Source of the DNA: Armatimonadia bacterium
GTDB lineage: Bacteria; Armatimonadota; Zipacnadia; Zipacnadales; JABUFB01
NCBI GenBank assembly: GCA_039679385.1
Contig: JBDKVB010000091.1
Span: forward strand, 1 to 64,000
DNA length: 64,000 nucleotides
Direction: 5' to 3'
The position numbers and the translations under genes are program-made. Positions 2,711-40,124 of the stretch are shown one piece after another; position 1 is the first letter of the stretch, and every line of letters starts with the position of its first letter. The notes under the pieces were generated by a model. It had not been told where the DNA came from. It was given only the letters and a program-made list of their open reading frames with translations, and ran no database searches.

Positions 2711-2800
2711 GTGCGCCTGGCCGCCGATGGGGTTCTGCCTGTGTATCGACTATGGGTCGCCCCCGTCGGCGCTTAGGCCGAAGGTCCAGTGACGGCAGAC

Positions 2801-2845: not shown

Positions 2846-2937
2846 CTGGGGCCCCGCGGTCTTCGGAGTGAGTTGGTGGACCACGGTATCGTTCTGCTCA
2901 AGGGGCGGCAAAGAGGGGCGATGAGGGAGGCCGGGTC

Positions 2938-7047: not shown

Positions 7048-7074
7048 CCCCGGAGCTCACGGGAGGAGGCACCG

Positions 7075-22154: not shown

Positions 22155-25085
22155 CTAGCTCACGTCCGCGTAGTGCTGGACGGCGTAGTCGACGGCGGCG
22201 TTCTTGAAGCCGCCCGGAAACAGGTTCAGCTCACGGTAGTCGTGGAGCAGCAGGCGTGCGATCTCCTGGCCCACCCGCTGGCAGGCGGCGGTGCTGTCGG
22301 TCCAGCCGGCGAACGCGTTGGCTTGCACGAAGCTCGCGATGTCCTGGGCCAGGGACTTGCATCGCTCGGGATCGGCGTCGGGTGCGAGCTCGAGGGCCTG
22401 TCGCATGATGGCCAACTCGCCGGGGGAGACCCCCTCCCGTTCGGGGGCCGCGATCGTCTCCACCACGTCCTGGATGAGGTTCCTATACTCCAGCATCAAC
22501 TGGATCCCATGCAGCATCCCTTCACGCTTGGCCTTGAGGATCCGCTCCAGTCGCTCGCTCAGCCTCTCGTAGGCCGGATCGGTGCCGCGACGTATCTGGA
22601 TCTCCCTGGCCACGGCCTGTTCCATCTCGGCAGCCTTATCGTCGGGGTCCCCCTCCAGGTCGTGGATGAGGACCAGGTAGTTCTCATCGATCCGGTATAA
22701 GGGCAGGTCCCGTTGTACGTCGAGGATATGGGTGTGCTCCAGTATGAGCTCCCTCGTCTTGGCCCCGTACGCTGCCAGGTTCGTCGTGTCCTCACGCTTG
22801 AACCGCTTGACGTAGGCCATGTAGAAATCGCACAGCCAAGCGTAGCTGTGCCGGTAGGCGTAGAGGTCCGGGTCCGGCATGATCGCTTCCCAAAGGGCCT
22901 GTGTCTGCCGGAACCGCCGCTCGAACTCCGCTTGCCGCTCCGGAGGGCTCTCCAGCCTCCTGAGGCAGGCCAGCAGGCACTGCACGCTGTCCTCCAGCTC
23001 GATCCCGGCGAAGTAGGACAGTGCCTCCGCGAGCGCCACCGGGAACTGCTCCTTGAGGGCGTCCCAGTCGAAGACGGCATCCTCGATCTCGGCCTCGTCG
23101 TAGTTCAGGGCGACCTGCAGGTTCTGGAAGACGCCGAAGTAGTCGACGACAACGCCGTTCTTTTTGCCCTCATGCGGGCGGTTCGTCCGGGCGATGGCCT
23201 GCAGTAGGCTGTGGTCCCGCAGTGGCTTGTCCAGGTACATGACCTGCTCGATCGGCGCGTCGAAGCCCGTCAGCAGCATGTCGCAGACGATCAGCAGTTG
23301 TGGCATCTCGCCGGGCTTCTTGAACTCCCGAATGACCGCCTCTTGGCCGGCCTTGCCGCGATGGTGCTCCCGCAGCAGGGCCTCGTCGTTCTGGCCCTCC
23401 GAGATCACCACGGTTGACGCCTCCGGCGGCAGGTGCTTGTCCAGCTCCTTCTTGACCAGGGCACAGGCCTCGCGGTCCACGCAGACGATCTGCCCCTTGA
23501 AGCCGTTGGGCTCCACGTGCTCCCGAAAGTGCTGGGCGATGTCCTCCGCTATCGACGCCACGCGTTCGGGGCTCTTCATGAGCAGCTTGAGGCGGGCGTT
23601 TTCCTTCTGGAGCCGCGTTCGCTCGGCCTCGCTGAAGTGCTCAAAGGTCTCCTCGAAGGCCGCATCCAGCAGCTCCCGCTCGATCCTCCAGCGGGCATCC
23701 CGTGGTTGGTAGTAGACGGGCACCGTCGCCTTGTCCGCGATGGCCTGGCGGATGCTGTAGATGTCGAGGTACCGTTCCTGCTTGCCCTCCACGATCGGCC
23801 CGAAGTTGCGGAAGGTGTTCAGGTGGTCGCGGTCGATCGGCGTGCCCGTGAAGCCGAACCGCTTGGCCCTCGGCATCACCCGCTGGCACTCGAGGCCGCA
23901 CAGTCCCTCCTGGCTGCGGTGCGACTCATCGGCCAGCACGATGATGTTGCTCCGGTCGGTCGCCACGTCCCCGAGTTCCTGGAACTTCTGGATGGTGGTG
24001 ACAAAGACGCCTCGCTTGCCGCTCTCGATGATCTGCCACAGGTCGGCGATCGAGAAAGCCCGGTCCACGTTCGGGAAGTCCACGGCCTCGAAGGTGCCGG
24101 TGATCTGCGTGTCGAGGTCCACCCGGTCGACGATGATGAACACCGTCGGCTGCTGCAGAGAGGGGTGGCGGCGAAGCTTCTGGGCGGTGAAGATCATGGT
24201 CAGGCTCTTGCCCGAGCCCTGCGTGTGCCAGACCAGGCCCCGATCGTGTTCTCCCCCGGTGACCCGGTCCACAATCTTGTTGGCGGCCCGGAACTGCTGG
24301 TAGCGGGCGACCTTCTTCACCGTGCGGTTGTCACGGGTCTCGAAGACCCAGAAGTGGGCCAGCATGTCCAGCAGGTTGTCGGGCGACAGGAGCCCCGTAA
24401 CCCCGACCTGCATCTCGCAGGCCTTGGGCGGCAGACTACGCGGCCAAGCGTCCTTCCACTCTGCCCAGTACTCCGGCGGGGCGTTTGTCGCTCCGTAGCG
24501 GAACTTGAGGCCGTCCGCCGCCACGTTCAGCAGGTTGGAGGCGAGCAACTGCGGGGCTTCCTCCTGGTAGCGCACGAACTGCTTCACCGCCTCCAGCCAG
24601 TCGTCATGGGCCGTCGGTGACTTCGCCTCGATCAGCACCAGGGGGATGCCGTTGACCAGCAGCGTCAGGTCGGCGCGGATGGTCTTCGTGCCACGTACCT
24701 GATACTGCCGGGCCACACAGAGGTCGTTGTTGCCGATGTCCTCGAAGTCCACCAGCCGCACGGTCTGAGTGGGCGCACCGGGGCGAAGCTGCAGTCGGGC
24801 ACCGTCCTGCAGGAGAGCCAGGAAGTTGCTGTTGGCCAGAAGCCAGTCGGGGGTGTGGTGGAAGGGACGGAGTATCTGGTCGATGACGGCCAGGGCATCT
24901 TCGCTCGTTTCGATGACGCCGAGGTTCAGCCGCAGGAGGGCGTCCACGAGGATCGGCTCCACGAAGGGGTCGGCGAGTGGGCGGGCATACCCGCGCATCT
25001 CCTTGGGTGTGCGAAAGGTCCAGCCCAGTTCGACAAGCCACTCGACGACCTGCAACTCGACGCAGTTGAGTTCAGAGAAGCTCAT
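22155..25085 (-). CDS. hsdR: Type I restriction enzyme R subunit
   Basis: This is a 976-residue motor and nuclease subunit of a type I restriction complex. The start at 25085 overlaps the previous stop in ATGA. The N-terminal nuclease domain has the PD-(D/E)XK element LVLIEAKSPTAHDDW. The SF2 helicase motor follows, with Walker A in THQ/TQGSGKSLTMIF and the DEAD-like box LADESHRSQEG. Motif VI is represented by QAIARTNRPHEGKKNG. The C-terminal part is helical, as expected for contact with the HsdM-HsdS core. It is separated from hsdM and hsdS by the XRE-ImmA/PIN module but reads in the same direction. Length matches the family. Confidence 0.93.
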   Translation of the reverse strand: MSFSELNCVELQVVEWLVELGWTFRTPKEMRGYARPLADPFVEPILVDALLRLNLGVIETSEDALAVIDQILRPFHHTPDWLLANSNFLALLQDGARLQLRPGAPTQTVRLVDFEDIGNNDLCVARQYQVRGTKTIRADLTLLVNGIPLVLIEAKSPTAHDDWLEAVKQFVRYQEEAPQLLASNLLNVAADGLKFRYGATNAPPEYWAEWKDAWPRSLPPKACEMQVGVTGLLSPDNLLDMLAHFWVFETRDNRTVKKVARYQQFRAANKIVDRVTGGEHDRGLVWHTQGSGKSLTMIFTAQKLRRHPSLQQPTVFIIVDRVDLDTQITGTFEAVDFPNVDRAFSIADLWQIIESGKRGVFVTTIQKFQELGDVATDRSNIIVLADESHRSQEGLCGLECQRVMPRAKRFGFTGTPIDRDHLNTFRNFGPIVEGKQERYLDIYSIRQAIADKATVPVYYQPRDARWRIERELLDAAFEETFEHFSEAERTRLQKENARLKLLMKSPERVASIAEDIAQHFREHVEPNGFKGQIVCVDREACALVKKELDKHLPPEASTVVISEGQNDEALLREHHRGKAGQEAVIREFKKPGEMPQLLIVCDMLLTGFDAPIEQVMYLDKPLRDHSLLQAIARTNRPHEGKKNGVVVDYFGVFQNLQVALNYDEAEIEDAVFDWDALKEQFPVALAEALSYFAGIELEDSVQCLLACLRRLESPPERQAEFERRFRQTQALWEAIMPDPDLYAYRHSYAWLCDFYMAYVKRFKREDTTNLAAYGAKTRELILEHTHILDVQRDLPLYRIDENYLVLIHDLEGDPDDKAAEMEQAVAREIQIRRGTDPAYERLSERLERILKAKREGMLHGIQLMLEYRNLIQDVVETIAAPEREGVSPGELAIMRQALELAPDADPERCKSLAQDIASFVQANAFAGWTDSTAACQRVGQEIARLLLHDYRELNLFPGGFKNAAVDYAVQHYADVS

Positions 25086-25594
25086 GTCGTCCCCCATCTC
25101 AGCAGACGTTCGTCGCACTCGTCTGCGGGCAGCCGGGCGCCCTGTTCCCTGATGGTTGTCAGTGCCCGCGCCGCCGCCCGCACCGCCAGCAACCTCCTCG
25201 CCACCAGCTCATCGAGGACCCACAGCAGACCGTGGACTTCCAACTGCTGCCCCTGCGCGGCCTCACGCAACTGGCGGTCACCTGTCAGCAGGCCCCATCC
25301 CTGCTCGATCGCCAGCAGAAGGGCGTATAGGTCCGCATCACTCGGATGCTTGTACCGGCTGCGTAGCTCGAGAAGGGCGGCACCCGACTCGGGTCCGGCG
25401 GAATGGCTGAGGAGGCCCTGGTCGAGGAGGCGGCCCGCCAGGTCCGGCCCGAGTTCGTCCACGACGGTGTCTGGACTGACGAACTCGTACCCGAGGGCGA
25501 AGACCAGGGCGGTCAACCCCCCGTTGTCCAGATCGATCCAGACGTTGGCATCGGTGACGAGGCTCAGACTCCGGCCACCTCCGGCTTCGGCCAC
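25082..25594 (-). CDS. PIN-domain protein, probable toxin nuclease
   Basis: This 170-residue protein has the acidic layout of PIN nucleases: VTDANVWIDLDNGG near the N terminus (first acidic residue D15), a Glu in TVVDELG, SDADLYALLLAIEQGW, and LLTGDRQLREAA. PIN proteins of toxin-antitoxin modules cut RNA. It overlaps the preceding XRE-ImmA gene by 31 bases and hsdR by 4, so all three are probably cotranscribed. The pairing of XRE/COG2856 (ImmA) proteins with PIN proteins is a known toxin-antitoxin arrangement. The start could lie a few codons downstream, since PIN domains usually begin close to the first aspartate. Confidence 0.8.
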   Translation of the reverse strand: MAEAGGGRSLSLVTDANVWIDLDNGGLTALVFALGYEFVSPDTVVDELGPDLAGRLLDQGLLSHSAGPESGAALLELRSRYKHPSDADLYALLLAIEQGWGLLTGDRQLREAAQGQQLEVHGLLWVLDELVARRLLAVRAAARALTTIREQGARLPADECDERLLRWGTT

Positions 25595-26640
25595 CCCATC
25601 TCTCCTCGCAGCTCGATCAGAGACGTGTTCAGGAGGTCAGCGGCGCGGGAGACAGAGATGATGTCCTCTGCCACCGCTCGTTCGACCAGCCGCTCGAACC
25701 GCTGAGTCTGCTCGGGCCTGACCTGCTCTCCTGGCTCGCGCTTGCTCCAGCCGCTCGCCCGAAACCGCCGGGCGATGATCTGGTACTGGTTGGCAGAGAT
25801 GATGTCCAGGTCTGCGAGGCGATGGAACCACGCTGCCATGCTCAGACCCCACTTGTGCTTCAGGGAGTGGATCTCCTTGAACTCGATCCGCCCCCGGTGG
25901 CTACCCACCTCTCGACGGACCGCCTCAGCCGGCACAAGGAACGCCCCGGCGAAGCGATGGCAGGCCTTCTCCGCGTCCACGTCTTCGGCCATGTGCTTTT
26001 CCAGCAGTAGGTGGCCCAACTCGTGGGCCAGCGTGAACCTCTGACGGTCACCGGGCAAGCCGTCGCCCTTTCGGCAAGCCACCACAGGGATCGTCTCATT
26101 CGCCCAGCACGAGTACCCGTCGAACTTCTCGTCCACGTCCTCGAGGAGGATGACCTTGACGCCGTGGTCCTCCAGCGTCTCGCACAGGTTCGCTATGGGG
26201 TCATGCCCGAGGCCCCAGTCACGCCGCAGGCCCTCCGCCCACTGTTCCGCCTCCTCGACACTCTTCAGCGTCCCGCTGCACGACTCGGGCCACTCGAACA
26301 CCGGCATCCTGTCCGGCTCGAATACGTCCTCGGCCGCGAGGTACCGCTCCAGGAACTCCCTGATCCGGCCCTCGATCATCCCCTGGGCCTTCTTCGTGAC
26401 TTTGCTGTGCTTGCGGAAGGCCGGGCACTGCACCTCCACCTGCAGTGGCCGCAGGAAGTAGCCGACCTTCACCCCGAGGGCCTTGCCCAGCCGTAGGAGC
26501 ATGTCCGAGCCGGGCAGAACCTGACTGTTCTCATACTTCGAAAGGGCCATTGCCGACACGTCCACACGCTCCGCCAGCTCTCTGAGGCTCAACCCCGCAG
26601 CGAGGCGAGCCTGCTTGATCCGCTCACCCATCGACTGCAT
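25564..26640 (-). CDS. XRE-family regulator fused to ImmA/IrrE metallopeptidase
   Basis: This is a 358-residue two-domain protein. Residues 5-60 are a helix-turn-helix of the XRE type (IKQARLAAGLSLRELAERV, then SKYENSQVLPGSDMLLRLG). A zinc peptidase domain of the ImmA/IrrE family (COG2856) carries HELGH at 206-210 in RFTLAHELGHLLLEKH, followed by ACHRFAGAFLVPAEAV. It is probably the antitoxin or regulator of the adjacent PIN protein, and may repress its own promoter through the inverted repeat at 26670-26705. A GGGGAG site lies eight bases before the ATG. The operon continues to the PIN gene, hsdR and the metallopeptidase gene. Confidence 0.9.
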   Translation of the reverse strand: MQSMGERIKQARLAAGLSLRELAERVDVSAMALSKYENSQVLPGSDMLLRLGKALGVKVGYFLRPLQVEVQCPAFRKHSKVTKKAQGMIEGRIREFLERYLAAEDVFEPDRMPVFEWPESCSGTLKSVEEAEQWAEGLRRDWGLGHDPIANLCETLEDHGVKVILLEDVDEKFDGYSCWANETIPVVACRKGDGLPGDRQRFTLAHELGHLLLEKHMAEDVDAEKACHRFAGAFLVPAEAVRREVGSHRGRIEFKEIHSLKHKWGLSMAAWFHRLADLDIISANQYQIIARRFRASGWSKREPGEQVRPEQTQRFERLVERAVAEDIISVSRAADLLNTSLIELRGEMGWPKPEVAGV

Positions 26641-26991: not shown

Positions 26992-28248
26992 CTACACCTT
27001 CACCCGCACCTTCCCCGTCAGCAACTGCTGCATCAGGCCACGCTTGAGGGCCTGCAAGCCGGTGAGTTCTTGCTGGGTGACGGTGACGGCAGTGCCGGCC
27101 GCCTCGAGCCGGGCAGCGATATCGTGTTGCTCAATGAGAGGCGGAAGACGCACTGGTATCTCTTTGAGCACCGGAGCCTGGATTGTCTGGATTGTGGTCG
27201 CGGAAGATGCAGCCTGCAACCGCTGCTGGAACTCCGCTCCGAGCATCACGTGCTTGAGCCACAGCGGATCCACTCGCCGTCTGTCCGGCGACAGACGGAT
27301 CAGGTTGGCCGTCATGTTGGCTCCGCTCAGGCAGCCGTGCACGTACCCGATCTTCCCCATCGTCCCCCGAACCGAGAGCACGAAGTCCCCCTCCTGCAGG
27401 ACTGTTCGGGGGAACCGGGCGGATGTCTGTGGGGAGATGCGGCGGTATTCCGCGAAGTCATTGCTCAAACGACCATCCTCGCCGATGAGTTCGCCCCGGA
27501 CCTCTGGCACGCCGGAGGCGACGTAGTCTATGTTGTAGTAGGTGGGGTATCGGTAGACTTCGTCACAGAGCTCTCCAAGCGTCGCGACACACCAGTTGGA
27601 CGGGAGATGCCCCAAGTCCGTCTCCACGAACTCCGTGTGCCCGATCCCCTTGGTCAGCAGCTCCTGCATCATCCCCCGCTTGACTTCCCGCAGGGCGGCG
27701 ATCACCGCCTCCGTCCGCTCGACCGCCTCGTCCACCGACCGCAGGACCGCCGCGATCTTCCGCTGTTCCGCGGGCGGGGGAAGGGCGATCTCGATCCGAG
27801 CGAACGAGTGACCGTCAACGCTCTGCACGGTGGTACCGGTCTTCACTGCTGTGCGGAGGATGTTGGTCGTGTTGGCCTGCAGTGCATAGAAGACGAAGTC
27901 ACTGCAGTGGGCAGCGTCCGTGGAAAGCACCTTGATGTCCTGGTTGACGGCGTAAGGCACTGAGCACCTGGTGATCGGGAACGTGTGCCGTAGGATGCCG
28001 CTGCGAAAGACCACTGCCACATCACTCGGCTGGTAGAGTCGCAGCCCTCTGCTGGTCAGGCCGACCTCTGTTATGTGGTCTTCGGTGTCCTGTATCTGCG
28101 AGGCACTGAAGTCTTTGGGAGTCAGCCAAGGGATGGAGCCTCCCCAGTAGTCCGGCTGCGACTTGCTCGGGGTGCCGCCGCCTCGCCAGACACCCAAATC
28201 CCCAACTCGTGCGGTCGTCCAGCCTTCCGGCAAAGCAGCCTCTGTCAT
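26992..28248 (-). CDS. hsdS: Type I restriction-modification specificity subunit
   Basis: This 418-residue subunit reads the target sequence for the HsdM methylase and HsdR motor. Two target-recognition domains are visible: the first starts at LPEGWTTARVGDLGVWRGGG with SIPWLTPKDF, the second at LPSNWCVATLGELCDEVYR. Each is followed by the conserved helical spacer (PPPAEQRKIAAVLRSVDEAV and PPLIEQHDIAARLEAAGTAV, the latter leading to GLMQQLLTGKVRV). It overlaps hsdM by four bases. The DNA target cannot be predicted from sequence alone. Confidence 0.92.
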   Translation of the reverse strand: MTEAALPEGWTTARVGDLGVWRGGGTPSKSQPDYWGGSIPWLTPKDFSASQIQDTEDHITEVGLTSRGLRLYQPSDVAVVFRSGILRHTFPITRCSVPYAVNQDIKVLSTDAAHCSDFVFYALQANTTNILRTAVKTGTTVQSVDGHSFARIEIALPPPAEQRKIAAVLRSVDEAVERTEAVIAALREVKRGMMQELLTKGIGHTEFVETDLGHLPSNWCVATLGELCDEVYRYPTYYNIDYVASGVPEVRGELIGEDGRLSNDFAEYRRISPQTSARFPRTVLQEGDFVLSVRGTMGKIGYVHGCLSGANMTANLIRLSPDRRRVDPLWLKHVMLGAEFQQRLQAASSATTIQTIQAPVLKEIPVRLPPLIEQHDIAARLEAAGTAVTVTQQELTGLQALKRGLMQQLLTGKVRVKV

Positions 28249-29783
28249 AGCCCCAACTCCTCAAGGTAGCCCCGCAACGTCTTCATGGCTTCCTCGCGGG
28301 CTGCCTCCGCCTCGCCCAGGGCCGCCACCGCTGCCGGCATGTCCACCGGCTCCTCCGGCTCGAAGGTGTCCACGTACCGGGGGATGTTCAGGTTGTAGTC
28401 GTTCTCGGCGATCTCGTCCATCGCCACCAGGCGGCAGTAACGCTCCTCGTCCTGCCCCGCCTCAAAGGCCGCCACGATGCGGTCCACATCCTGCGGCCGC
28501 AGGCGGTTCTGGTTCGAGAGTTCCTCGTAGTCCTTGGCGGCGTAGATGAACAGCACCTTGCCCCGTCGCTCCTGTGGCTTGCAGCGGTTGAAGAACAGCA
28601 GGCAGCCGGGGATGGTGTTGCCGTAGAAGAGGTTGGACGGTAGTCCGACCACCGCCTCAAGGAGGTCCTCCTTCAGCATCGCCCGCCGGATCTTGCCCTC
28701 GGCGTTGCCTCGGAACAGCACGCCCTGGCTGCAGACTACCCCCGCTCGGCCGGTCTCGTTCATGCTGGCGACGATGTGCTGGAGGAAGGCGAAGTCGCCA
28801 TTCTTGCTTGGCGGCATGCCGTACCGCATCCGCCCGAAGGGATCCTCCTTGAGCCGCTCGTGGCCCCAGTTCGCATCGGAGAAGGGGAAGTTGGCGATGA
28901 CCACATCAAAGGTGTCGATCTGTCCTTCGCCGCGAGTGAACTGCGGATCGGTGAGCGTGGAGGCCCCGCCCCGAATCTCGGCCTCCAGGTCGTGCAGGAC
29001 CATGTTCATGCGGGCGATGGCCCAGGTGTTCCAGTTCCGCTCCTGCCCGAAGAGCTTCATCTTCCGAGCCCCGTCCGGCCCGTCCTGCCGCCGCACGTGC
29101 TCGGCGCTGTAGACCAGCATCCCACCCGAGCCGCAGGTGGGGTCATAGACTCGAGCTGTGGGGGAGGGCTTGAGGATGCGAACCAGTACCTGGACGACCT
29201 CACGGGGGGTGTAGAACTCTCCGCCCTTCGCGCCGGCGTCATCGGCGAACTTGAGGATCAGGTACTCGTAGGCCCGCCCCAGCACGTCCACATCCACGTT
29301 GTCGTTGGAGAGGTTGTGCGTGCTGAACTCCTGGACAAGATCGTGCAGCACCTCGTTGCCGATGCGGGGCTTCTGGATCCCGCTATCGTTGACGGTGGCG
29401 TTCCAGTCGACCGCCCGGAAGACAGCATCGAGTTGGGGGTTGGCAGAGCCGACCTCGCCCATCACATGATTGAGCTTCTGCCCAAGCTGATGGGTGGGCG
29501 TGCTGACGATGTCTTGCCAGAAGCATCCCGCCGGGATGCTGATGCGGTGCTGGTGGAAATCGGGGTCGTTCCGGATGGCCTTCCGCATCGCGGCCGTTAG
29601 CTCTGTCGTCCCCGACTGCATCTTGCGCACGGCCTGTTCGGCCTCGCATTCCCACTGGTCGGCGAGACGCTTGTAGAACATCAGGGTCAGGATGTAGTCC
29701 TTGAAGTCCTGGGAGTCGATGGAGCCCCTGAGCTTGTTTGCACAAGACCACAGGTGCGTCTCTAGTTGCTGCTGAGTTAGCAT
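28245..29783 (-). CDS. hsdM: Type I restriction-modification DNA methyltransferase
   Basis: This is a 512-residue N6-adenine methylase. The N-terminal HsdM helical domain (LETHLWSCANKLRGSIDSQDFKDYI split by family gaps) precedes the SAM-binding motif VYDPTCGSGGMLV and the catalytic motif DVVIANFPFS. The usual catalytic form is NPPF or NPPY; here it is NFPF, a variant seen in part of the HsdM family. RMNMVLHDLEAEI is also characteristic. hsdM and hsdS overlap in one transcript, while hsdR is carried downstream after an intervening regulatory module. Confidence 0.92.
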   Translation of the reverse strand: MLTQQQLETHLWSCANKLRGSIDSQDFKDYILTLMFYKRLADQWECEAEQAVRKMQSGTTELTAAMRKAIRNDPDFHQHRISIPAGCFWQDIVSTPTHQLGQKLNHVMGEVGSANPQLDAVFRAVDWNATVNDSGIQKPRIGNEVLHDLVQEFSTHNLSNDNVDVDVLGRAYEYLILKFADDAGAKGGEFYTPREVVQVLVRILKPSPTARVYDPTCGSGGMLVYSAEHVRRQDGPDGARKMKLFGQERNWNTWAIARMNMVLHDLEAEIRGGASTLTDPQFTRGEGQIDTFDVVIANFPFSDANWGHERLKEDPFGRMRYGMPPSKNGDFAFLQHIVASMNETGRAGVVCSQGVLFRGNAEGKIRRAMLKEDLLEAVVGLPSNLFYGNTIPGCLLFFNRCKPQERRGKVLFIYAAKDYEELSNQNRLRPQDVDRIVAAFEAGQDEERYCRLVAMDEIAENDYNLNIPRYVDTFEPEEPVDMPAAVAALGEAEAAREEAMKTLRGYLEELGL

Positions 29784-29923: not shown

Positions 29924-30994
29924 TCACATATCGGGATCGAATAGAGCCATCTGCTTCTGGGGCTGAGCCGTCTTTCGCGGCTTCCTGTCACGGGGGAGTT
30001 GGCTGTCTGCGAGCTTCCGCACGAATCGCCCCTGAGCATCGGTGAATGACCTGTACTCGATGTCGTAGCTGCCGGACTCGGTCTTCTTGCCGTGCCCCTG
30101 TCGGACCAACTCCTCCAGAGCGTCCCGGACCCACTGCTTCCGTGGGATGGTCCTGCAGTTCTGGCCTGCGGGCGGCAGACAGCGGGTCAGCCTTGACTGC
30201 AGGTCCCTCGCGATGGCATCGTCAGTCACGACCACGTGCGGCGACCTCTTCTTCTCTCGGCTCTCCTTGTACTGGGCGACTGTGATGAGGGACGGGAGCA
30301 CCTCGTTCCAGATGACCGCCATCATGTAAGGTAGGGGTGGCGGGGAGTCATAGAAGTGCAACTGGTAGCGGGTGATCAGATAGTCGAGCTTGATGGTCAG
30401 CACCCGCCGCAGTTCCTCATCCAGTTCCGGGTCGGTTAGCCTCCCGTAGCAGCGTTCGAGACTTATCTGCTCTTCCAGATCGCGGGCCCGTTGGAAGGCG
30501 ACGACGGCAAAATCCCGCTCGAACTGCAGATCACCCGCCTCGATATGTTCACTCAGGTAGTCGACCACATCGACCTTGCGGGTATGATGCACTAAGACCG
30601 TGAGGCAGTGACTCGGCAGCGGTTGCTGTGTCTGCGGCCAGCCACTCAAGCTGTCATCGTACTTCCGCATCTGCTTCTGGAGATCATCGCCCCAGTGATC
30701 CGGGTTCCTGGGGATGGTCCGTTTTACCTCGGCGACGCTGCCCCACTTGCCGCCGATGCCGACGACAATATCGGGCGTCACCGCATTGCTGGGGCATACC
30801 GCGTTCTCCTTGGAGGTCTTCAGTTTTGGCCCGATGGCGACTAGGCTGTCTGGTACGAAGTCATCCGTGTTTGGGTCCCAGAGGGCAGCATGGGCAAAGG
30901 CGAAGATCGCTTGAACGGTTGACTGGTAGTTATCGATCTCAATGTGCTTGGCCTTGGCCAGTTGATCCAGCTTGGCCTGGCGTTCCTCAGTCAT
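29924..30994 (-). CDS. Unknown protein with PD-(D/E)XK nuclease-like motif
   Basis: I do not recognise the family of this 356-residue protein. At residues 74-91 it has PDIVVGIGGKWGSVAEVK, which fits a PD-(D/E)XK nuclease core (P74-D75, then E89-x-K91), and an upstream helix (TVQAIFAFAHAALW) could supply the first acidic position. The middle is helical. The C-terminal part, about 230-320, looks like a winged-helix region (RKQWVRDALEELVRQG). It has no export signal. Its ATG overlaps the stop of the upstream gene by eight bases, so the two products probably act together. Location beside a type I restriction system makes a defence role plausible but unproven. Confidence 0.7.
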   Translation of the reverse strand: MTEERQAKLDQLAKAKHIEIDNYQSTVQAIFAFAHAALWDPNTDDFVPDSLVAIGPKLKTSKENAVCPSNAVTPDIVVGIGGKWGSVAEVKRTIPRNPDHWGDDLQKQMRKYDDSLSGWPQTQQPLPSHCLTVLVHHTRKVDVVDYLSEHIEAGDLQFERDFAVVAFQRARDLEEQISLERCYGRLTDPELDEELRRVLTIKLDYLITRYQLHFYDSPPPLPYMMAVIWNEVLPSLITVAQYKESREKKRSPHVVVTDDAIARDLQSRLTRCLPPAGQNCRTIPRKQWVRDALEELVRQGHGKKTESGSYDIEYRSFTDAQGRFVRKLADSQLPRDRKPRKTAQPQKQMALFDPDM

Positions 30995-32093
30995 GGGCTA
31001 TCAACTCCCCCTCCCTGAACTGGTCCAACACGTGGCCGATCAGCCTTCCGAAGGCGGACGCTGATGCCCTGGCACCGGGCAGGATGGTGATCTCCTCGGC
31101 ATCGACCACCCACACGGCGAAACTCGAACCGTCGAGGTGGTCGACCAGGCTCACGTGGAGATAGGGGTTGCCATGATAGACCGACAGAGACGAGTCGGGC
31201 AGCTTTCGGAGCTGACGGACTAGGAACTTCGCGGCTGCAACGTCCCGGAAGACTGGTTCGCCGTAGCGGATCTTCAGCGGGCGTAGGGGGAACTCGTATG
31301 AGTTGCCGCGGTCGCGGCCCTGCAGTGTCTCCTTCTCTTGGCTCAGGATCGCCGCCGACCGCAGGACTACCTGTTCCCAGACAACCGGCACAGCCGACGT
31401 TGCGGTGACAACCGCGTCCCGTCCGAGAGACCCCGCCGCCTCGCAGAATCCGGCTTCGCCTTCGTCCCAGTCGAAGCTGAAGCCGATACGTCGTACCCAA
31501 CCCTTCGTCTCCGCCAGGTATAGAGACGCGTTCTCCAGCGTCCGCTGCGTCCACTTGCGATCTGACTCCCACGCACCATCTTCCGCTGCCGCATCGATCG
31601 GGGCTCGGTATGAACACCCCCGTACCACAAAGCCCGAACAGCAGTTGTCTGCAGCCACGCCCTCAAGCACCTCAAACACCATGCTCGTGTCGAGGAAGCC
31701 CCTGCCCACACTCGGGTACTCTTCCCGGAGGAAGGTTTGGTGCAGTCGTCTGAAAACACCGCTGCCGGCGGCCGAACTGAGGATACAGCAACCACCATAG
31801 ATCGTCACGAAGAGCACGGGAGCATCGTGGACAGATGGGGCATCAAGCGGAAGCCCCGCAGCCCCCTGATCACTCTCGGGTCTGCCGACGGCTAGGGCCA
31901 AGTACGGGTCACCCAACAGCACCCGCCACTCGTCCCAGTGCCACGTTCGGTCAGTCGAAAGGGCAGCCTGATCCAGGTCCGCCGGCATGACGGCGAACCT
32001 GGCCGATGTCCTACCCCCTACGACGGCGTCGAGGGCGCCAAGCATGGAAGACACGTCGTGGACGTCGCGGAACCGCTCCGGGATGAGAGCCAT
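30987..32093 (-). CDS. Unknown protein, partner of the PD-(D/E)XK-like gene
   Basis: This 368-residue soluble protein is of unrecognised family. The ATG at 32093 is preferred because GGAGGG lies eight bases upstream; a GTG six bases earlier is too near. It contains a hydrophobic strand region (APVLFVTIYGGCCILSSAAGSG), a Trp-rich central helix (WTQRTLENASLYLAETKGWVRRIGF in parts) and a C-terminal alpha-beta unit (SLSVYHGNPYLHVSLVDHLDGS). I see no Walker, nuclease or membrane motif. Translational overlap with the downstream gene points to a two-component cassette. It lies back to back with the next plus-strand cassette. Confidence 0.65.
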   Translation of the reverse strand: MALIPERFRDVHDVSSMLGALDAVVGGRTSARFAVMPADLDQAALSTDRTWHWDEWRVLLGDPYLALAVGRPESDQGAAGLPLDAPSVHDAPVLFVTIYGGCCILSSAAGSGVFRRLHQTFLREEYPSVGRGFLDTSMVFEVLEGVAADNCCSGFVVRGCSYRAPIDAAAEDGAWESDRKWTQRTLENASLYLAETKGWVRRIGFSFDWDEGEAGFCEAAGSLGRDAVVTATSAVPVVWEQVVLRSAAILSQEKETLQGRDRGNSYEFPLRPLKIRYGEPVFRDVAAAKFLVRQLRKLPDSSLSVYHGNPYLHVSLVDHLDGSSFAVWVVDAEEITILPGARASASAFGRLIGHVLDQFREGELIAHD

Positions 32094-32414
32094 CTGCACC
32101 GCCCTCCCACCGTTGCCTAGAGCCCTACAACGGTAGCATGACCGTACTTCTGGTGGAAGATCCCACTGTTCGCCTTGTTGGTCGTTCTCTCCTCTTCCTC
32201 TGAGACCAGCAATAGGGTACCTGACAGCCCCAACGGTGAAGCTCCTTCGCGTAGCATCTGCAGCCGCCGCCCTCAGGCTGTGACGATCGCATTACCTGTG
32301 GCCTTCTGCCTCACCACAATATGGCGTCCATCAGCCAAGATGAAGAGGTCGTCAACTCCTCCATGGCGAAGACGCATCGGTCGGTCACGTTCGCGGTGCG
32401 GTAGGAGCGCCTCG
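32094..32414. other. Divergent intergenic region between the two unknown cassettes
   Basis: This region carries the start signals for the minus- and plus-strand cassettes. The plus-strand open frame that runs through it (from 32175) is rich in Ser, Arg and Pro and looks non-coding. A short minus-strand frame (32273-32443) does look protein-like and is listed separately. Confidence 0.4.
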
Positions 32415-32443
32415 ATGGAGGCGCGGCCTCTTGACCCATACAT
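32273..32443 (-). CDS. Possible 56-aa small protein
   Basis: A 56-codon frame on the minus strand reads like protein, with charged and hydrophobic alternation (MRLRHGGVDDLFILADGR, then HIVVRQKATGNAIVTA). There is no good ribosome-binding site, and its first 29 bases overlap the start of the plus-strand gene at 32415. It may be a real small protein, a fragment or chance. Confidence 0.3.
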   Translation of the reverse strand: MYGSRGRASIEALLPHRERDRPMRLRHGGVDDLFILADGRHIVVRQKATGNAIVTA

Positions 32444-33692
32444 CACAACGCCGGGGGGATGTCAGTTGGCCCAAGAGTACTCGCTGAGGACGTTTCTGAG
32501 GAAGGCACCCAATGCGCTTCTGCAGAGCTACCTGACTGAGCGGTTGGGGATAGAGATCCCGTGGCACAGGCTGTCTGAGACGAGCGTCGATGAGATCATC
32601 ACCGCAATCGAGAACGCCCCGGAGGCGAGCAGACGGCAAGCCGAGAATGCCTTCCGCGACATTCACGATATGGCCGACGGGAACGGCCGTCGGCTGTTCA
32701 TCGAGGAGGGGCGCGACAGTCACCACAACGTCGAGCTCGCCGATATCCTGGACGCAAAGAGCGGTCATCTTGAGTGTGCGTTCTGGGTGTTCCTGACGCA
32801 TCCTGCCATCTTCAACGTAGCGAGACGGTTCCACGAAGCGGATGCATTGCCCCGCCCCCGCAAACGGGACCGCCTGCCGAGTGCTGAGCCCAACACGGAC
32901 AGCGAGACGGCGTGCCGTCTCGGAACAGCGATCTCCGGGTACTACTCCCATAGCGAAGGGCGAGGATACCTGTGTGAGGTCGAGCACTACCGACGCCAAT
33001 ACAGGCTGTACTGGTTTGCCTACCTGTCAGACTACGCCCAGAGCAACCTCACCTTCAACGACGACCAACAACTGGAGGCACGGACGCAACGGCCAGCCTT
33101 CCAGATCGTCTTTGTCTACGACCCGAGAGAACGGTCGCTCGAGATCACCCTGAAGGGCGACAAGAGACGCCTGCTTGACCTTCAGTGCATCTTCGGCAAT
33201 GTGGTCTTGGGAGTGGACCTGCGCCAGGAGGATCCGTCGCGCGTCGTCTACGACTTGGCGCCGCTCATTCGCCGGGATTTCCCCTTTGATCTTGAGCCCG
33301 ACGATGGGGTGGACGTCGTTAGCGTCAAACGACTTCGCCTGCGGGTAATTGGCGCAGACAACGAGCGGATCACGCTGGAGGCCGCGACCAAGGGCAACCG
33401 GAACGCTGTCTACGACTTGCTGGATAGGGTGGTCGCAAGCAAGCAACTGCCGTCTGGCCTGATGCAGGTGACCTCGGTGACGCTGTCCCTTGCTTTCAGA
33501 GCGCAGGGGCAAGAGCCGGCCCGGACAGTGACCCTTCACGTTTCCACCCCAGACTCATGCTCCCTGAAGCACGACCCGCGCCACGACCATGTCAGGGATC
33601 TGCTCAAGAGGTGGGGGATTGATGTCTCGGGACGCCCTGAAGACGATCCTGCTGATGCTCGACGCCCGGTGCAGTTCACTAATCGGGTCTGA
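32415..33692 (+). CDS. Unknown protein in a pair with a winged-helix protein
   Basis: This 425-residue protein is of unrecognised family. The ATG at 32415 is chosen because GTAGGAG lies seven bases upstream and the sequence becomes protein-like only from here; the open frame starts 80 codons earlier with Ser/Arg/Pro-rich residues. The N-terminal third is helical (EYSLRTFLRKAPNALLQSYL). A central His/Asp/Glu-rich segment (DIHDMADGNGRRLFIEEGRD) precedes a beta-rich region with many Tyr (YRRQYRLYWFAYLSDYAQS). No export signal or membrane segment is seen. It overlaps the next gene by 71 bases, which suggests tight coupling. Confidence 0.65.
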   Translation: MEARPLDPYITTPGGCQLAQEYSLRTFLRKAPNALLQSYLTERLGIEIPWHRLSETSVDEIITAIENAPEASRRQAENAFRDIHDMADGNGRRLFIEEGRDSHHNVELADILDAKSGHLECAFWVFLTHPAIFNVARRFHEADALPRPRKRDRLPSAEPNTDSETACRLGTAISGYYSHSEGRGYLCEVEHYRRQYRLYWFAYLSDYAQSNLTFNDDQQLEARTQRPAFQIVFVYDPRERSLEITLKGDKRRLLDLQCIFGNVVLGVDLRQEDPSRVVYDLAPLIRRDFPFDLEPDDGVDVVSVKRLRLRVIGADNERITLEAATKGNRNAVYDLLDRVVASKQLPSGLMQVTSVTLSLAFRAQGQEPARTVTLHVSTPDSCSLKHDPRHDHVRDLLKRWGIDVSGRPEDDPADARRPVQFTNRV

Positions 33693-34605
33693 CGATGTGG
33701 CAGACTGGGGTCCCGGCGAACTCGAGGCCCTCCTCACTGCTGGCCTGTTGCGTCCAGCCGGCATGGCAAATGCGGTTGAGTGCGAGTGTGAGGCAGGTGG
33801 GCTCGAGGATGTCATCTTCGTGGACGGCGCGGAGGGAGAGGGACTGCGGGCCTACATCGTCTGCCGTGAGGGCAGCCTGGGACGTGTGAAGGTGCCTCTG
33901 GAGCGCCTGAGACGGTGGAGAACGGACCCCGCTGGTCTGGCCCGCTATCTGGCTGCCCAGTTCGACGAAGGGACGAGGGTGGACGAGTGCGTGCCTGAGC
34001 GTTTGTGGTGGCTCGGCAGACCGATCGTGGGGAACAAGCGGTGCGACCTGTTCCTTGCCCGCGGCGCCACATGGGGCGATGCGGACGAAGTCTTTGGAGC
34101 GCCAGGAGCAGCGACCGGCTGTACCAGAGCCGTGGTGCTGGTGCCGCGGCAACTGCCCACTGGCGCTCTTTTCACTCCCAGCACGCAGGTGGTCTGCTTG
34201 GGACGTGTGTTGTCTCTTGGGGACGGCGCACTGCGTGTGGACGTGAGCGTGGTACAGGATGCCATGGCGGCCGAGCAGGTCGCGGCACCACTTGGTCGCC
34301 AGCCCGTTCTTGTTATCGACGGGGTGTCGGTTGAGTACCGGAACCAAAGGGTGATGCTGAGCTCACTGCCATTGCAGCTCCTCAAGGCCCTGGCCCACAA
34401 GCCTGGAGCCCTGTTGTCTCACTTCGAGCTGGCTGAGGCCGTCTGGGGGGATGCGGGGACGCAGTACCTTGACCAGCTCAGAGGCCACGTGAAGACGGTA
34501 AACGACGCCTTCATCAAGGCAGGCAGCACCACGAGACTGATCAGGCCCAAGAAAGGAACCGGTTACCTCCTCGACCTGGGCGCCGAGCAGGTGTCATGCG
34601 ACTAG
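33622..34605 (+). CDS. Protein with C-terminal OmpR/PhoB-type winged helix
   Basis: This 327-residue protein starts at 33622 (after GGTGGGGG) inside the end of the preceding gene. The N-terminal 220 residues are of unknown fold, with several Trp and Cys and no receiver-type aspartate pocket that I can identify. The last ~95 residues match an OmpR/PhoB DNA-binding domain: YRNQRVMLSSLPLQLLKALA, then GALLSHFELAEAVWGD, and the closing wing STTRLIRPKKGTGYLLDL. It probably regulates its own cassette or senses a signal through the N-terminal part. It is not part of an ordinary two-component system, as no histidine kinase is nearby. Confidence 0.72.
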   Translation: MSRDALKTILLMLDARCSSLIGSDDVADWGPGELEALLTAGLLRPAGMANAVECECEAGGLEDVIFVDGAEGEGLRAYIVCREGSLGRVKVPLERLRRWRTDPAGLARYLAAQFDEGTRVDECVPERLWWLGRPIVGNKRCDLFLARGATWGDADEVFGAPGAATGCTRAVVLVPRQLPTGALFTPSTQVVCLGRVLSLGDGALRVDVSVVQDAMAAEQVAAPLGRQPVLVIDGVSVEYRNQRVMLSSLPLQLLKALAHKPGALLSHFELAEAVWGDAGTQYLDQLRGHVKTVNDAFIKAGSTTRLIRPKKGTGYLLDLGAEQVSCD

Positions 34606-34777: not shown

Positions 34778-34960
34778 GTGCAGCGGGATATGGCAACGGC
34801 GTTCAGCAGCGACACCCAACGCTTCTGGCAGCAGCGTGGTGTCAAAGCTGTTTCCCCGGAGGACGCTCGCGAGGCGATCCGCAATGTGGCGGCCTTCGTC
34901 GACTTGCTGGCACTGTGGGACAAAGGTGTCGCGGACGAGTCAGAGCGACAGGCGGAATAA
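34778..34960 (+). CDS. Small island protein upstream of the primase
   Basis: This 60-residue protein (GTG start after GGAG, spacing seven; ATG at 34790 is an alternative) contains SPEDAREAIRNVAAFVDLLA followed by LWDKGVADESE. I recall similar short proteins with an EDAREAIRNV core next to primase and recombinase genes in integrative elements. Its function is unknown. It ends 17 bases before the primase start, so it is likely in the same transcript. Confidence 0.6.
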   Translation: MQRDMATAFSSDTQRFWQQRGVKAVSPEDAREAIRNVAAFVDLLALWDKGVADESERQAE

Positions 34961-34977
34961 CGAGAGTGGGTGCAACG

Positions 34978-37236
34978 ATGACAGGGAGACAGACGAAGTG
35001 GGCGATGGTACCAGGGGAACTGAAGCGCGAACGGCGGTGGGTCTGCTGGGTCTACGAAGACCGCAATGCGAAGCGGACCAAAGTGCCCGTCGTGGCGGCA
35101 AGGCTCTTCCGTGCAGATGGCGGGCCGCGCCGGGCATCCTGTCGGGATCCTCGCACCTGGCGCAGCTTTGCAGAGGCCGCCGCCAACGCGAACCGTTTCG
35201 AGGGCATTGGCTTCATGCTTGGCAATGGGTTTGCCGGCATCGACCTCGACCGTTCACTGAGCGCGAACCAGTCGCTCGAGCCCTGGGCAGCACCCATCCT
35301 CAGCATTGTCCAAAGCTACACGGAGGTCTCCCCGTCACAACACGGGCTCAAGATACTCTGTCGCGCCCACAAGCCCCGCGACGCTGGACCGAAGGACAGC
35401 GGCAACAGGAAGCCAGTCGAGGGCGGGGAGGTCGAGTGCTACTGGGAGCGACGCTTCTTCACGATCACCGGCCAGCACTGGGCAACAAGCCCGCTGGCAA
35501 CCACCGACTGTGGCGATGCGTTTGCAGGCGTCTGGCGTCAGTACGTCAAGCCCGCAGGCCAGGACGACGGCCATCGGCAGTCAGACAGAGCCGGCGGCCT
35601 GAGCGACGCAGACCTCCTTGCGAGAGCGAGGACATCGAAGAACGGCGCCCAGTTCGTTGCGCTCTTCGATCAGGGGGACACGTCCGCGTACCGACGGACC
35701 AACGAGGACGGGACCGCCAACGATGGCGCAAGCGAAGCCGACCTTGCGCTGTGCAACCACCTCGCCTTCTGGACAGGAGGCGACGAGGCTCGCATTGACC
35801 GTCTGTTCAGGCAGTCAGCCCTCATGCGCAGCAAGTGGCTCCGCGATGACTACCGCGATGGTACGGTTCAGAAGGCCATCCGGAATGCTCGCGCGACGGT
35901 GTCGTACCGGAAGCGCTGTACCAACGAACAGCGCGGGTCGTACCAGGCTTCCGCACCCCGGGGGGGCGCCGGAGACCCCGTGAGTGCTTCGCGGCTCGCT
36001 AGCGCGGTCCTGAAAGCAGACTCCTTCGCAGTGGATGAAGGCAATGCGCTCTACTACTTCGACCATGGACGCTATCGGTCAAAGGGCGAGCGCCGCATCG
36101 CGAGCCGTGTCAAGCGCCTGCTCACGACTTGGGGGCAGAGTGACAAATGGAGCAGCCGCAAGCAGTGTGAGGTGGCCGAGTACATCCGAGTTGATGCGCC
36201 TCGTCTCTGGTCCGTGCCCCCACTGAACGTACTGAACTGCGGCAACGGCCTTCTTGACCTGGCCACGGGCGAATTCCGCGAACACGACCCGAGTTTCCTA
36301 TCGCTAGTGCAGCTTCCGGTGCAGTACGACCCCGACGCCACCTGCCCCGCTTGGGAGCGCTTCGTCGAGCAGACCTTCCCCGACGACGCCCTGGGGCTGC
36401 CGTGGGAGATCGCCGCGTGGCTAATGACGCCCGACACATCCAACGAGAAAGCCCTTCTCCTGCTTGGTGAAGGGGCTAACGGCAAGTCAACCTACCTGGC
36501 GGGACTGATGGCCTTCCTCGGCAACGAGAACTGCACGAACCTCAGCCTTCAGAAGCTGGAAACTGACCGCTTCGCCGCAGCCAGGCTCGCAGGCAAGCTC
36601 GCGAACATCTGTCCTGACCTTCCCTCGGCCCACCTCGCCGGCACGAGCGTGTTCAAGGCCATCACCGGGGGAGACCGGATCGACGCTGAGCGCAAGTACG
36701 CTGAAGGCTTCTCCTTCGACTGCTATGCCCGCCTCGTCTTTAGCGCCAATCACCCTCCACAGTCTGCCGACGCTTCGCCGGCGTTTTTCCGGCGGTGGTT
36801 GTGCGTTCCCTTCGCGCGGACCTTTGAGGGGAGCGCGGCAAGGAACCGCGGCGAACTCGACGCAGAGCTTGGGGCCGCCAAGGAGCTTTCTGGAGTGCTC
36901 AATCTCGCGCTTGCCGCCCTGCCTCGCGTTAGGTCGAAGGGACTCACCGAAGCGACGTCCATGCGAGAGGCAATGGGCGACTTCCGAACGGTCACCGATC
37001 CCTTGGTGGTATGGCTTGAGAGGGAGGTGGTACGTGGGTCTAGGCTGCTGACCCCCAAACGCCAGCTGCACTCCGCGTACAACGAGGCCTGTCAGAAGGC
37101 GGGTCGTCCTGTGACCACAGAGAAGTCCTTTGGCAGCGCGTTGCGGCGTTTCATGCCAGGCGTCGAGGAAGGACAACGTACCGTTGGTGACAGGCTGCAG
37201 TGGTGCTGGGTGGGGATCGGGCTTCGCTCCGCATAG
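34978..37236 (+). CDS. Primase-helicase of phage/plasmid type (P4/D5-like)
   Basis: This 752-residue protein starts at 34978. The N-terminal domain is of the archaeo-eukaryotic primase / NrS-1 polymerase-like type (RRWVCWVYEDRNAKRTKVPV, EGIGFMLGNGFAGIDLDRS with acidic residues for metal binding). A D5-like segment with SF3 helicase follows: Walker A GEGANGKST at about residue 497, and the P4-family stretch ANICPDLPSAHLAGTSVFKAI leading to TGGDRIDAERKY. The C-terminal part is helical and may bind DNA. It should start and drive replication of the element. Iteron-like repeats lie directly downstream. Confidence 0.85.
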   Translation: MTGRQTKWAMVPGELKRERRWVCWVYEDRNAKRTKVPVVAARLFRADGGPRRASCRDPRTWRSFAEAAANANRFEGIGFMLGNGFAGIDLDRSLSANQSLEPWAAPILSIVQSYTEVSPSQHGLKILCRAHKPRDAGPKDSGNRKPVEGGEVECYWERRFFTITGQHWATSPLATTDCGDAFAGVWRQYVKPAGQDDGHRQSDRAGGLSDADLLARARTSKNGAQFVALFDQGDTSAYRRTNEDGTANDGASEADLALCNHLAFWTGGDEARIDRLFRQSALMRSKWLRDDYRDGTVQKAIRNARATVSYRKRCTNEQRGSYQASAPRGGAGDPVSASRLASAVLKADSFAVDEGNALYYFDHGRYRSKGERRIASRVKRLLTTWGQSDKWSSRKQCEVAEYIRVDAPRLWSVPPLNVLNCGNGLLDLATGEFREHDPSFLSLVQLPVQYDPDATCPAWERFVEQTFPDDALGLPWEIAAWLMTPDTSNEKALLLLGEGANGKSTYLAGLMAFLGNENCTNLSLQKLETDRFAAARLAGKLANICPDLPSAHLAGTSVFKAITGGDRIDAERKYAEGFSFDCYARLVFSANHPPQSADASPAFFRRWLCVPFARTFEGSAARNRGELDAELGAAKELSGVLNLALAALPRVRSKGLTEATSMREAMGDFRTVTDPLVVWLEREVVRGSRLLTPKRQLHSAYNEACQKAGRPVTTEKSFGSALRRFMPGVEEGQRTVGDRLQWCWVGIGLRSA

Positions 37237-38488: not shown

Positions 38489-38642
38489 CCCGGCCCTACG
38501 CCCCCTGTGTCCAGCCTCGGCCACAAGTGGGAAGGACCCACAGGCGCGCAAGAAGAAGACCATTGTGAGCCCTGCTCGCTAGGGTAGTCAGCAGCGCTCT
38601 GCAGAGCACGACGGTCTACGTCGGCAGTCGGGGGAGCGAATG

Positions 38643-40124
38643 ATGAAGGCGACACCTCGAAGCAGCGGCACCCCAGTCGTTATCTACGCCCGTGTCTCCA
38701 GCAGGGAGCAAGCTGATGAGGGCTTCTCCATCCCGGCTCAACTCAAACTCCTGCGCGAGTATGCCTCCGACAGAGGCTTCGACGTCGCGCAGGAGTTTGT
38801 GGACGTGGAGACGGCCAAGCAGGCGGGGAGGCCGGCCTTCGGCGAGATGGTGGAGTTCCTGCGCCGACGCCAGAAGACGTGCAGAACCTTGCTGGTCGAG
38901 AAGACTGATCGCCTCTACCGTAATCTGCGGGACTACGTCACCCTCGACGACCTGGACGTCGAGGTCCACTTTGTCAAGGAGAGCTTCGTGCTCTCTGATG
39001 ACAGCCGGTCCACCGAGAAGTTCATGCACGGGATCAAGGTCCTCATGGCGAAGAACTATGTGGACAACCTCGCCGAGGAAGCCAGCAAGGGGATGAGGAC
39101 AAAAGCCGAGCAGGGCACCTGGCCGTCCTCAGCACCGCTGGGGTACCTCAATGTGCGATCTGGCGACAGGCGCGGTATCGCGCTGGACCCGGAGCGGGCC
39201 GGCACCATCAGGCGCATGTTCGAGGTGTACGCGTCAGGTAACTGCAGCCTGGAGGAGATCCGCGTGCGCGCCATTGCCGAGGGGCTTATGACGAGACGCG
39301 GCAGCGCGCCGTCGAAGAGCACGATCGCGCGGGTACTGAAGAACCCCTTCTACACGGGGCAGTTCCAGTGGGGAGGGCGCACCTACACAGGGGATCACAC
39401 GCCCCTGGTCTCGGCTGAGCTTTTCCATCGAGTACAGGAGGCCTTCCGCCAGGGAAACCACCCCGTCCACGAGAGCAAGCGGTCCCTCGCCTACGCTGGG
39501 CTCATCAAGTGCGAACGCTGCGGTTGTGCGGTCACGGCGGGTGTTCACAAGGGGAAGTACGTGTACTACCGCTGCACGCGCGCGCGAGGTGACTGCAGGG
39601 CTCCACTGATCCGTGAAGACAGGCTGGAGGGCCTCCTGGGCGAACTCGTGCAGCGCGTGCAGATCGACGAACAGACCATCGACTGGGTCGCTATGGCCCT
39701 CAAGGAAAGCCACCGCGACGAGAAGGAGCACCATGCAGAGCAGGTGGATCACCTACAGCGAGAACTGACGAAGATCCAGGCTCGTATGGACAGGGCATAC
39801 GAGGATAAGCTCGATGGCAGGATATCCGAGGACTTCTGGCAGCGGAAGAGCAGTGAGTGGCGAGCCAGTCGACTCGAGCTGCAGGCCGCGATCGAACGGC
39901 ACCAGAGAGCGGCAGAACTGTACCTTGAGGCAGGCGTGCAGGTGCTCCGCCTGGCCATGCGGGCGTACCCCCTCTGGCTCCATCAGCCCCAGACTGGGAA
40001 ACGGAAGCTGCTGGATATCCTCCTCTTAAACTGCACCTTCGATGGCCAAACCCTAAGGGCCACATACAGAAAACCCTTCTGCTGGTTGGCAGAAGGGTCA
40101 TTGCGTACTGTATGGCGGGGCTGA
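38643..40124 (+). CDS. Large serine recombinase (site-specific integrase)
   Basis: This 493-residue recombinase probably integrates and excises the island. The resolvase domain opens VVIYARVSSREQADEGFSIP; the catalytic serine is Ser19 (first Ser of ARVSS, counted from 38643). The recombinase domain follows (APLGYLNVRSGDRRGIALD, NPFYTGQFQWGGRTYTG). A zinc ribbon comes next (IKCERCGCAV and YYRCTRARGDC), then a long coiled coil typical of large serine integrases. The C-terminal tail (CTFDGQTLRATYRKPFC) is coded by bases that also form the tRNA-Asp terminator, and the stop lies inside the tRNA 3' end. ATG 38640 is an alternative start. Confidence 0.92.
   Translation: MKATPRSSGTPVVIYARVSSREQADEGFSIPAQLKLLREYASDRGFDVAQEFVDVETAKQAGRPAFGEMVEFLRRRQKTCRTLLVEKTDRLYRNLRDYVTLDDLDVEVHFVKESFVLSDDSRSTEKFMHGIKVLMAKNYVDNLAEEASKGMRTKAEQGTWPSSAPLGYLNVRSGDRRGIALDPERAGTIRRMFEVYASGNCSLEEIRVRAIAEGLMTRRGSAPSKSTIARVLKNPFYTGQFQWGGRTYTGDHTPLVSAELFHRVQEAFRQGNHPVHESKRSLAYAGLIKCERCGCAVTAGVHKGKYVYYRCTRARGDCRAPLIREDRLEGLLGELVQRVQIDEQTIDWVAMALKESHRDEKEHHAEQVDHLQRELTKIQARMDRAYEDKLDGRISEDFWQRKSSEWRASRLELQAAIERHQRAAELYLEAGVQVLRLAMRAYPLWLHQPQTGKRKLLDILLLNCTFDGQTLRATYRKPFCWLAEGSLRTVWRG

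Follow-up and report, generated by a model that had tools for sequence, protein, structure and literature searches.

A two-gene module of bacteria and haloarchaea combining a nuclease-like protein with a putative sliding-clamp docking tail

Computational analysis of the window, a 64,000-nucleotide stretch of DNA from the phylum Armatimonadota, and of related loci has identified a two-gene module, B-A. The second protein of the module (A) likely has a PD-(D/E)XK nuclease fold and ends in a peptide of the kind bound by the replication sliding clamp. It is probable that the pair acts on DNA while it is being copied, either policing or poisoning it, and its most likely role is defence against foreign DNA. 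We consider the chances even that B-A is a clamp-tethered surveillance or defence module which would use a nuclease or, in some lineages, a membrane effector.

The gene pair and its immediate neighbourhood

The module is encoded in the window by two genes:

30987-32093, minus strand: gene B, first gene of the pair, 368 aa from the ATG
29924-30994, minus strand: gene A, second gene of the pair, 356 aa

The genes share the eight bases 30987-30994, the overlap described in an earlier note on this DNA, and gene B has an alternative in-frame GTG start six bases 5' of the ATG. That note had also placed the pair beside a type I restriction system in a mobile setting, and the genes for both were found:

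28245-29783, minus strand: HsdM of the type I RM system, adjoining A, 140 bases downstream (context, outside the conserved pair)
26992-28248: HsdS of the type I RM system, downstream of A
25564-26640: RmrA-like regulator (HTH and M78 peptidase), inside the type I RM operon, downstream of A
22155-25118: HsdR of the type I RM system, downstream of A
34915-37236: D5/NrS-1-like primase-helicase, on the upstream side of the pair among divergent genes
38640-40124: Ccr-like large serine recombinase, on the upstream side of the pair, abutting a tRNA-Asp gene
40113-40190: tRNA-Asp, adjoining the serine recombinase

The Hsd genes are on the same strand as the pair and adjoin it, but A and B have no domain in common with the Hsd subunits. 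Since most loci with the pair lack Hsd genes (at locus L029, HsdM is two genes away), we rejected the possibility that the pair belongs to the type I RM operon.

Several other features of this region were recorded. RmrA is listed in PADLOC as an RM-associated regulator family. Divergent from B is an ORF of 505 aa (32175-33692, plus strand) for which no family match was obtained and which probably starts later than the listed TTG; it is followed by a Trans_reg_C winged-helix protein (33589-34605). A 26-base repeat (92%) at 13106-13131 and 40057-40082 is built on the hairpin AAAACCCTTCTGC...GCAGAAGGGT. It was set aside as an att site since the hairpin is terminator-like, and it may still be an island-end repeat.

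Distribution and co-inheritance of the pair

Relatives were gathered by whole-genome search together with alignment of B; a single-protein scan of the genome contigs gave no relative. B was immediately upstream of A at all 23 distinct loci, the spacing ranging from -17 to +58 bases with an ATGA-type overlap of 4 bases being the commonest arrangement (11/23). Within Armatimonadota, the whole-genome search found A in 6 of the 291 genomes, with B adjacent in the same six, and the main clades of the A tree agree with those of the B tree. B-A is a real two-gene module, and the survey of gene neighbourhoods that the earlier note had proposed bears out the co-occurrence of its members.

The pair is found in Armatimonadota, Omnitrophota, Planctomycetota and Acidobacteriota, on Arthrobacter plasmids and in haloarchaea (Halosegnis, Haloarcula pNG100, Natrinema, Halosimplex, Halorussus, Halomicroarcula, Halorarius and Natronomonas). 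The MAG carriers are labelled Omnitrophota, Bacillota, Planctomycetota, Acidobacteria and Nanoarchaeota, and one IMG/VR contig also has the pair; these, like the haloarchaeal and Arthrobacter loci, came from plasmid and genome collections. Its frequency is sparse and scattered (6/291, 2/393 and 1/237). The contig binned as Nanoarchaeota (L029, JAHIPG010000238.1) has a bacterial-type RadC and HsdM, and its bin assignment may be wrong.

Protein A and its putative catalytic site

The model of A, built with 17 homologues, has a pLDDT of 88 and a pTM of 0.83. From the N-terminus it shows a long helix, a core of mixed alpha/beta structure, more helices, a domain resembling a winged helix and a tail predicted to be disordered. 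The residues proposed to be catalytic are found in one short stretch:

30722-30772, minus strand: putative catalytic stretch of A, from D75 (TPDIVV) to E89 and K91 (AEVK)

A contains TPDIVVGIGGKWGSVAEVK, which includes D75, E89 and K91; in the model, D75 is at the start of strand 76-80 while E89 and K91 are on strand 84-91. The PDIVV...AEVK pattern pointed out in the earlier note is therefore present, and since nearly all homologues have the P-D and 14 of 23 retain E/D-x-K, it goes beyond the chance resemblance of a single sequence. The order of secondary structure in the high-confidence model is compatible with the alpha-beta-beta-beta-alpha-beta core of a nuclease fold, with Foldseek E values of 0.03-0.3. 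The best PDB match, itself weak, was the Shedu protein SduA (E 0.028), and there were further weak matches (E about 0.2-0.3) to XisH, YaeQ and SfsA, which are likewise PD-(D/E)XK proteins. Among viral models, A matched a phage restriction endonuclease, MmcB-like proteins and an annotated PD-(D/E)XK nuclease. From the combination of fold, motif and conservation it is likely that A belongs to the PD-(D/E)XK fold, and on this basis it looks like a DNA-cleaving enzyme. The C-terminal winged helix that had been suggested for A is supported by the model (helices 258-272 and 286-298, strands 302-304 and 310-313) and by weak Foldseek matches to the winged-helix domains of cullin WHB, VanR and YtrA.

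A and B of the window had no match in Pfam, NCBIfam, PADLOC, PDB sequences or phage genomes. The profiles of PADLOC-DB 2.0.0 gave 0 families for the two window proteins and 0 for the 17 A homologues, and profile searches of the PDB returned chance matches only. The view that the pair matches no named system thus held in the Pfam, NCBIfam and PADLOC searches, and neither a housekeeping nor a known defence family was matched. Two known nucleases nevertheless serve as analogies. NucS is a PD-(D/E)XK-like (RecB-motif) nuclease of archaea and Actinobacteria that is activated by a C-terminal PCNA/beta-clamp motif (PMC8228993). A is similar to NucS/EndoMS in its likely type of nuclease, in having a putative PIP/beta-clamp motif at its extreme C-terminus and in occurring in archaea and Actinobacteria, but it has no sequence match to NucS, and its nuclease-like core is central with the winged helix following. 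The pair also differs from NucS/EndoMS in its obligatory partner B, its sparse and mobile distribution and its repeatedly lost catalytic site. Membership of NucS was rejected since the NucS profile was unmatched in Pfam and NCBIfam; in Pfam the 17 A homologues likewise had no NucS family match. Shedu SduA, a PD-(D/E)XK defence nuclease, is a single-gene system, whereas A has a partner and a clamp tail, and membership was rejected because neither A nor its homologues matched Shedu/DUF4263 in PADLOC or Pfam.

The C-terminal tail of A

The account of A in the earlier note was sound regarding the PD-(D/E)XK pattern and the winged helix but overlooked a putative clamp-docking peptide at the C-terminus:

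29927-29959, minus strand: C-terminal tail of A, ...QKQMALFDPDM, with the putative beta-sliding-clamp binding peptide QMALF

Residues 344-354 are predicted to be disordered (pLDDT < 50). The beta-clamp consensus is QL[S/D]LF, with the relaxed forms Q-phi-x-[L/M]-[F/L] and Q-phi-x-[L/M]-x-[F/L] (PMC13254535), and the PIP box of Haloferax is QxxLxxFx (PMC7776575). The bacterial A proteins have tails such as QLSLFELDE, QMDLFETN, QLELFSPQ, QRNLFE, QMSLPLDQ, QQSLTLGEN, QLSLFDASE and QPSLFDEFE, while those of haloarchaea end in QSSLDDF, QSSLEEFS, QTSLVQFE, QTSLGQF, QSSLEEYF, QPTIGEF or QPTIGEY. QxxL followed by F or xL was present within the last 20 residues of 8 of the 12 non-redundant bacterial proteins, compared with 0.21 expected from shuffling, and QxxLxx[FY] (PIP box) was present at the extreme C-terminus of 5 of the 7 non-redundant haloarchaeal proteins (0.03 expected); in both cases 0 of 20000 shuffles reached the observed count. 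The neighbouring proteins, taken as those of at least 150 aa excluding A and B and possibly including some spurious ORFs, had the clamp and PIP motifs in 0/122 and 0/85 cases. A recognisable clamp peptide is missing from the bacterial homologues at L027, L029, L034 and L037 and from the haloarchaeal homologues at L007 and L042. The two Y-family polymerases encoded in the window's genome served as a positive control and have QPSLFEE and QLSLFEE close to the C-terminus. Since the bacterial proteins have the clamp form and the haloarchaeal proteins the PIP form, as defined by the published consensuses, the putative docking tag of A corresponds to the type of clamp used in the host's domain. It is proposed from these sequence matches that the tail of A binds physically to DnaN or PCNA.

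A very improbable alternative, in our judgement, is that these tails are coincidental, low-complexity disordered C-termini and that the pair is an unnamed restriction-type system of the PD-(D/E)XK class. The shortness of the motifs (5-7 residues) and their absence from 6 of 23 homologues would fit this, but their frequency is far above that in shuffled sequences and neighbouring proteins, they are at the extreme C-terminus, their type switches with the host clamp, and the host's own clamp clients have the same letters.

Protein B

The model of B (pLDDT 79) is alpha/beta, with a C-terminal half at about 90 and a poor region at residues about 42-90. The order of the C-terminal domain, beta-alpha-beta4-alpha, is TBP-like, and judging from the model B probably holds TBP-like domains. 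Part of B gave weak, partial PDB fold matches to the toxin RnlA of RNase LS (prob 0.47-0.92), CENP-L and Iml3, but there was no sequence match to RnlA, no RnlA family profile and no RNase site identified in B. The top PDB matches of B (phytochromes, KICSTOR and CPLANE) were discarded as noise, having TM-scores of 0.1-0.2 and an rmsd near 20. The most conserved part of B is a signature near its C-terminus:

31040-31186, minus strand: signature stretch of B, residues approximately 303-351, SVYHGNPYLHVSLVD...R

The signature, VxHxNPYxH...D...P....S.....R (V305-R350), is nearly invariant in bacteria and archaea, and the invariant residues of the B alignment are R262, V305, H307, N309, P310, Y311, H313, D318, P339, S344 and R350. 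Since it is more conserved than anything in A, this sequence probably holds the core activity or a recognition surface. The earlier description of the partner as having no recognisable domain is correct in that no family was matched but missed the probable TBP-like folding and the HxNPYxH signature.

Loss of the active site and additional membrane proteins

The D, E/D and K residues are intact in A of the window and in 13 other homologues and have been lost in three lineages. In the actinobacterial lineage (L023, L024 and L027), K91 is replaced by A to give E-x-A; at L025, L038, L039 and L040, E is replaced by K together with K by L; and at L022 and L044, D is replaced by T, E by D and K by I. 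All of these homologues except that of L027 keep the clamp peptide, and the B signature is kept at all of these loci. The earlier nuclease reading of A is in accordance with the motif in the window protein, but did not take into account the repeated loss of the site or the membrane proteins that accompany two of the losses.

The first of these proteins, C1 (444-461 aa), is common to the four E-to-K/K-to-L loci, where it is upstream of the pair:

L025:6816-8201: C1, unnamed haloarchaeal family
L038:8189-9523: C1
L039:7982-9361: C1
L040:8198-9577: C1

C1 has two hydrophobic segments at its C-terminal end and a region resembling a coiled coil. It is not specific to the pair, as relatives (L060, L062, L063 and L064) occur elsewhere with no A or B, directly behind a 405-aa HNH-like protein ending in LCIPCHRR. 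C1 is therefore an exchangeable part and looks like an exchangeable membrane effector. The second, C2 (216-217 aa), is seven bases downstream of the pair at the two D-to-T loci, and on Haloarcula marismortui pNG100 it is directly 3' of the pair:

L022:8878-9528: C2, four hydrophobic segments
L046:7680-8333: C2, four hydrophobic segments

A relative of C2 is present in L061. C2 gave weak PADLOC matches to PycTM (E 5e-4 and 1.5e-4) and to the CBASS 2TM effector (0.03 and 0.003), and the PycTM match could be a general likeness between membrane proteins. While C2 beside the dead-A pairs of L022 and L046 is in this way reminiscent of Pycsar PycTM and CBASS 2TM effectors, no cyclase is annotated or family-matched beside the pair, and C2 is absent from the window. 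At the loci with intact A, the pair is not adjoined by any conserved membrane protein encoded in the same direction; L034 has an ORF of 223 aa on the downstream side with one hydrophobic segment, which was judged unrelated.

The A tree places the two dead haloarchaeal clades as sister groups, support being moderate (88/89), and a single catalytic loss could therefore lie behind both. C1 and C2 are unrelated in layout and are on opposite sides of the pair, which suggests separate acquisitions. Since the actinobacterial lineage lost K91 with no gain of a membrane protein, the swap of effectors is not universal.

These losses also bear on two other explanations of the pair. One is a DNA-repair module, in which A would be a NucS/EndoMS-like, clamp-activated endonuclease specific for structures or mismatches, B would find the lesion, and the pair would have spread horizontally. 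The shared NucS design of a nuclease with a C-terminal clamp motif speaks for this, as do the SbcCD-like genes (by annotation) near the pair at L040, but we consider it unlikely given the lack of a NucS family match in Pfam and NCBIfam, a sparse and mobile distribution that is unlike housekeeping, the repeated loss of catalytic residues from a pair that persists, which would be odd for a repair nuclease, and the poor fit of the membrane-protein partners. The other, which we also doubt but rate a little less unlikely, is a toxin-antitoxin or addiction system stabilising plasmids and islands, where A or its clamp peptide would block or cut replicating DNA and B would neutralise it. Such a system would account for the overlapping two-gene layout on plasmids and islands and for the weak fold similarity of B to the toxin RnlA, and clamp-targeting toxin-antitoxin systems are on record (PMC12795458). 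It does not sit well with two large (about 360 aa), multidomain proteins of which B rather than A is the better conserved, with the persistence of catalytically dead A, or with a clamp tag and winged helix that exceed the needs of a toxin.

Genomic context of the pair

The surroundings of the pair differ at almost every locus. Defence-type genes are near it in the window and at L007, L022, L023, L029, L030, L031, L038 and L039, and there were none among the genes examined at the remaining pair loci. Type I RM genes were found in the window and at L029; further defence neighbours are PDC-S37, PDC-S28, a type III RE, HmaB-like and IetA-like proteins and a C5 methylase. At L028, L033, L036 and L037, the pair is located among metabolic or other ordinary genes, and the context is suggestive of defence rather than decisive.

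At L031 a run of defence genes (635-10908) comprising a PLD-helicase (DrmD/HmaA/C3a139-like), an Eco57I-type methylase, a DarT-like gene and macro-domain genes leads into B-A, with a gap of 3 bases between the run and the pair. The whole is possibly a larger composite defence operon.

ParA/ParB genes are near the pair on plasmids (L024 and L025), and serine recombinases are near it in the window and at L024 and L027. These neighbours would be expected if the pair were an accessory of its mobile element, steering the replication, copy number, incompatibility or fork-coupled integration of its carrier. It would be in keeping with such a role that transposases are known to bind the clamp (PMC4549789; compare TnsE and IS transposases). 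However, no single gene for replication or integration is a constant companion of the pair, the type of element differs at nearly every locus, and the surroundings at L028, L033 and L036 are those of an ordinary chromosome, making this role improbable.

Proposed mode of action

Returning to the clamp-tethered surveillance or defence module, we propose that A would deliver its PD-(D/E)XK nuclease domain and winged helix to the sliding clamp, with the QMALF tail docking in the ligand pocket of the host beta clamp and, in haloarchaea, the PIP box binding to PCNA instead. B would be indispensable to A, either recognising a signal or gating A through its HxNPYxH surface or site. The complex, sitting on clamps left on replicating DNA, would sample newly replicated DNA, and upon meeting foreign or abnormal replication by a phage or plasmid A would cleave the DNA. 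In the lineages with a decayed site, A may have stayed on as a clamp adaptor, and in the two haloarchaeal clades the adjoining membrane protein would be the likely effector.

Clamp docking is equally a trait of repair enzymes, which counts against the defence reading. We favour defence over housekeeping repair since the distribution is scattered, the pair is found on plasmids and near RM and other defence genes, and effectors have apparently been exchanged. The pair would then be of the nuclease-based conflict or defence kind, with clamp docking in a two-gene system as its specific new feature. A description of a clamp-docked two-gene defence system was not found in a search of the open-access literature. 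More tentatively, and with less than even confidence, the pair may be an undescribed immune module of bacteria and archaea that inspects nascent DNA via the sliding clamp, its tag having been swapped between domains of life and the killing passed to membrane proteins in some lineages. If the proposal is correct, the sensor of a defence or conflict system would be plugged directly into the replication clamp, explaining how replicating foreign DNA could be found with no sequence or modification signal. The use of beta-clamp tags in bacteria and of PIP boxes in haloarchaea would then document, in nature, how one module adapted to hosts of different domains.

The B proteins of the haloarchaeal/actinobacterial clade (L007, L042, L025, L038-L041, L022, L023, L024 and L027) end in a short acidic-aromatic tail, for example SLTDFVA, TMADFFPT, TMGDFFSA or SLDDLVGAG, that is possibly a second docking peptide, as judged from its sequence. 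The B tails closest to a PIP box are those of L007 and L042, the two loci where A has no PIP box.
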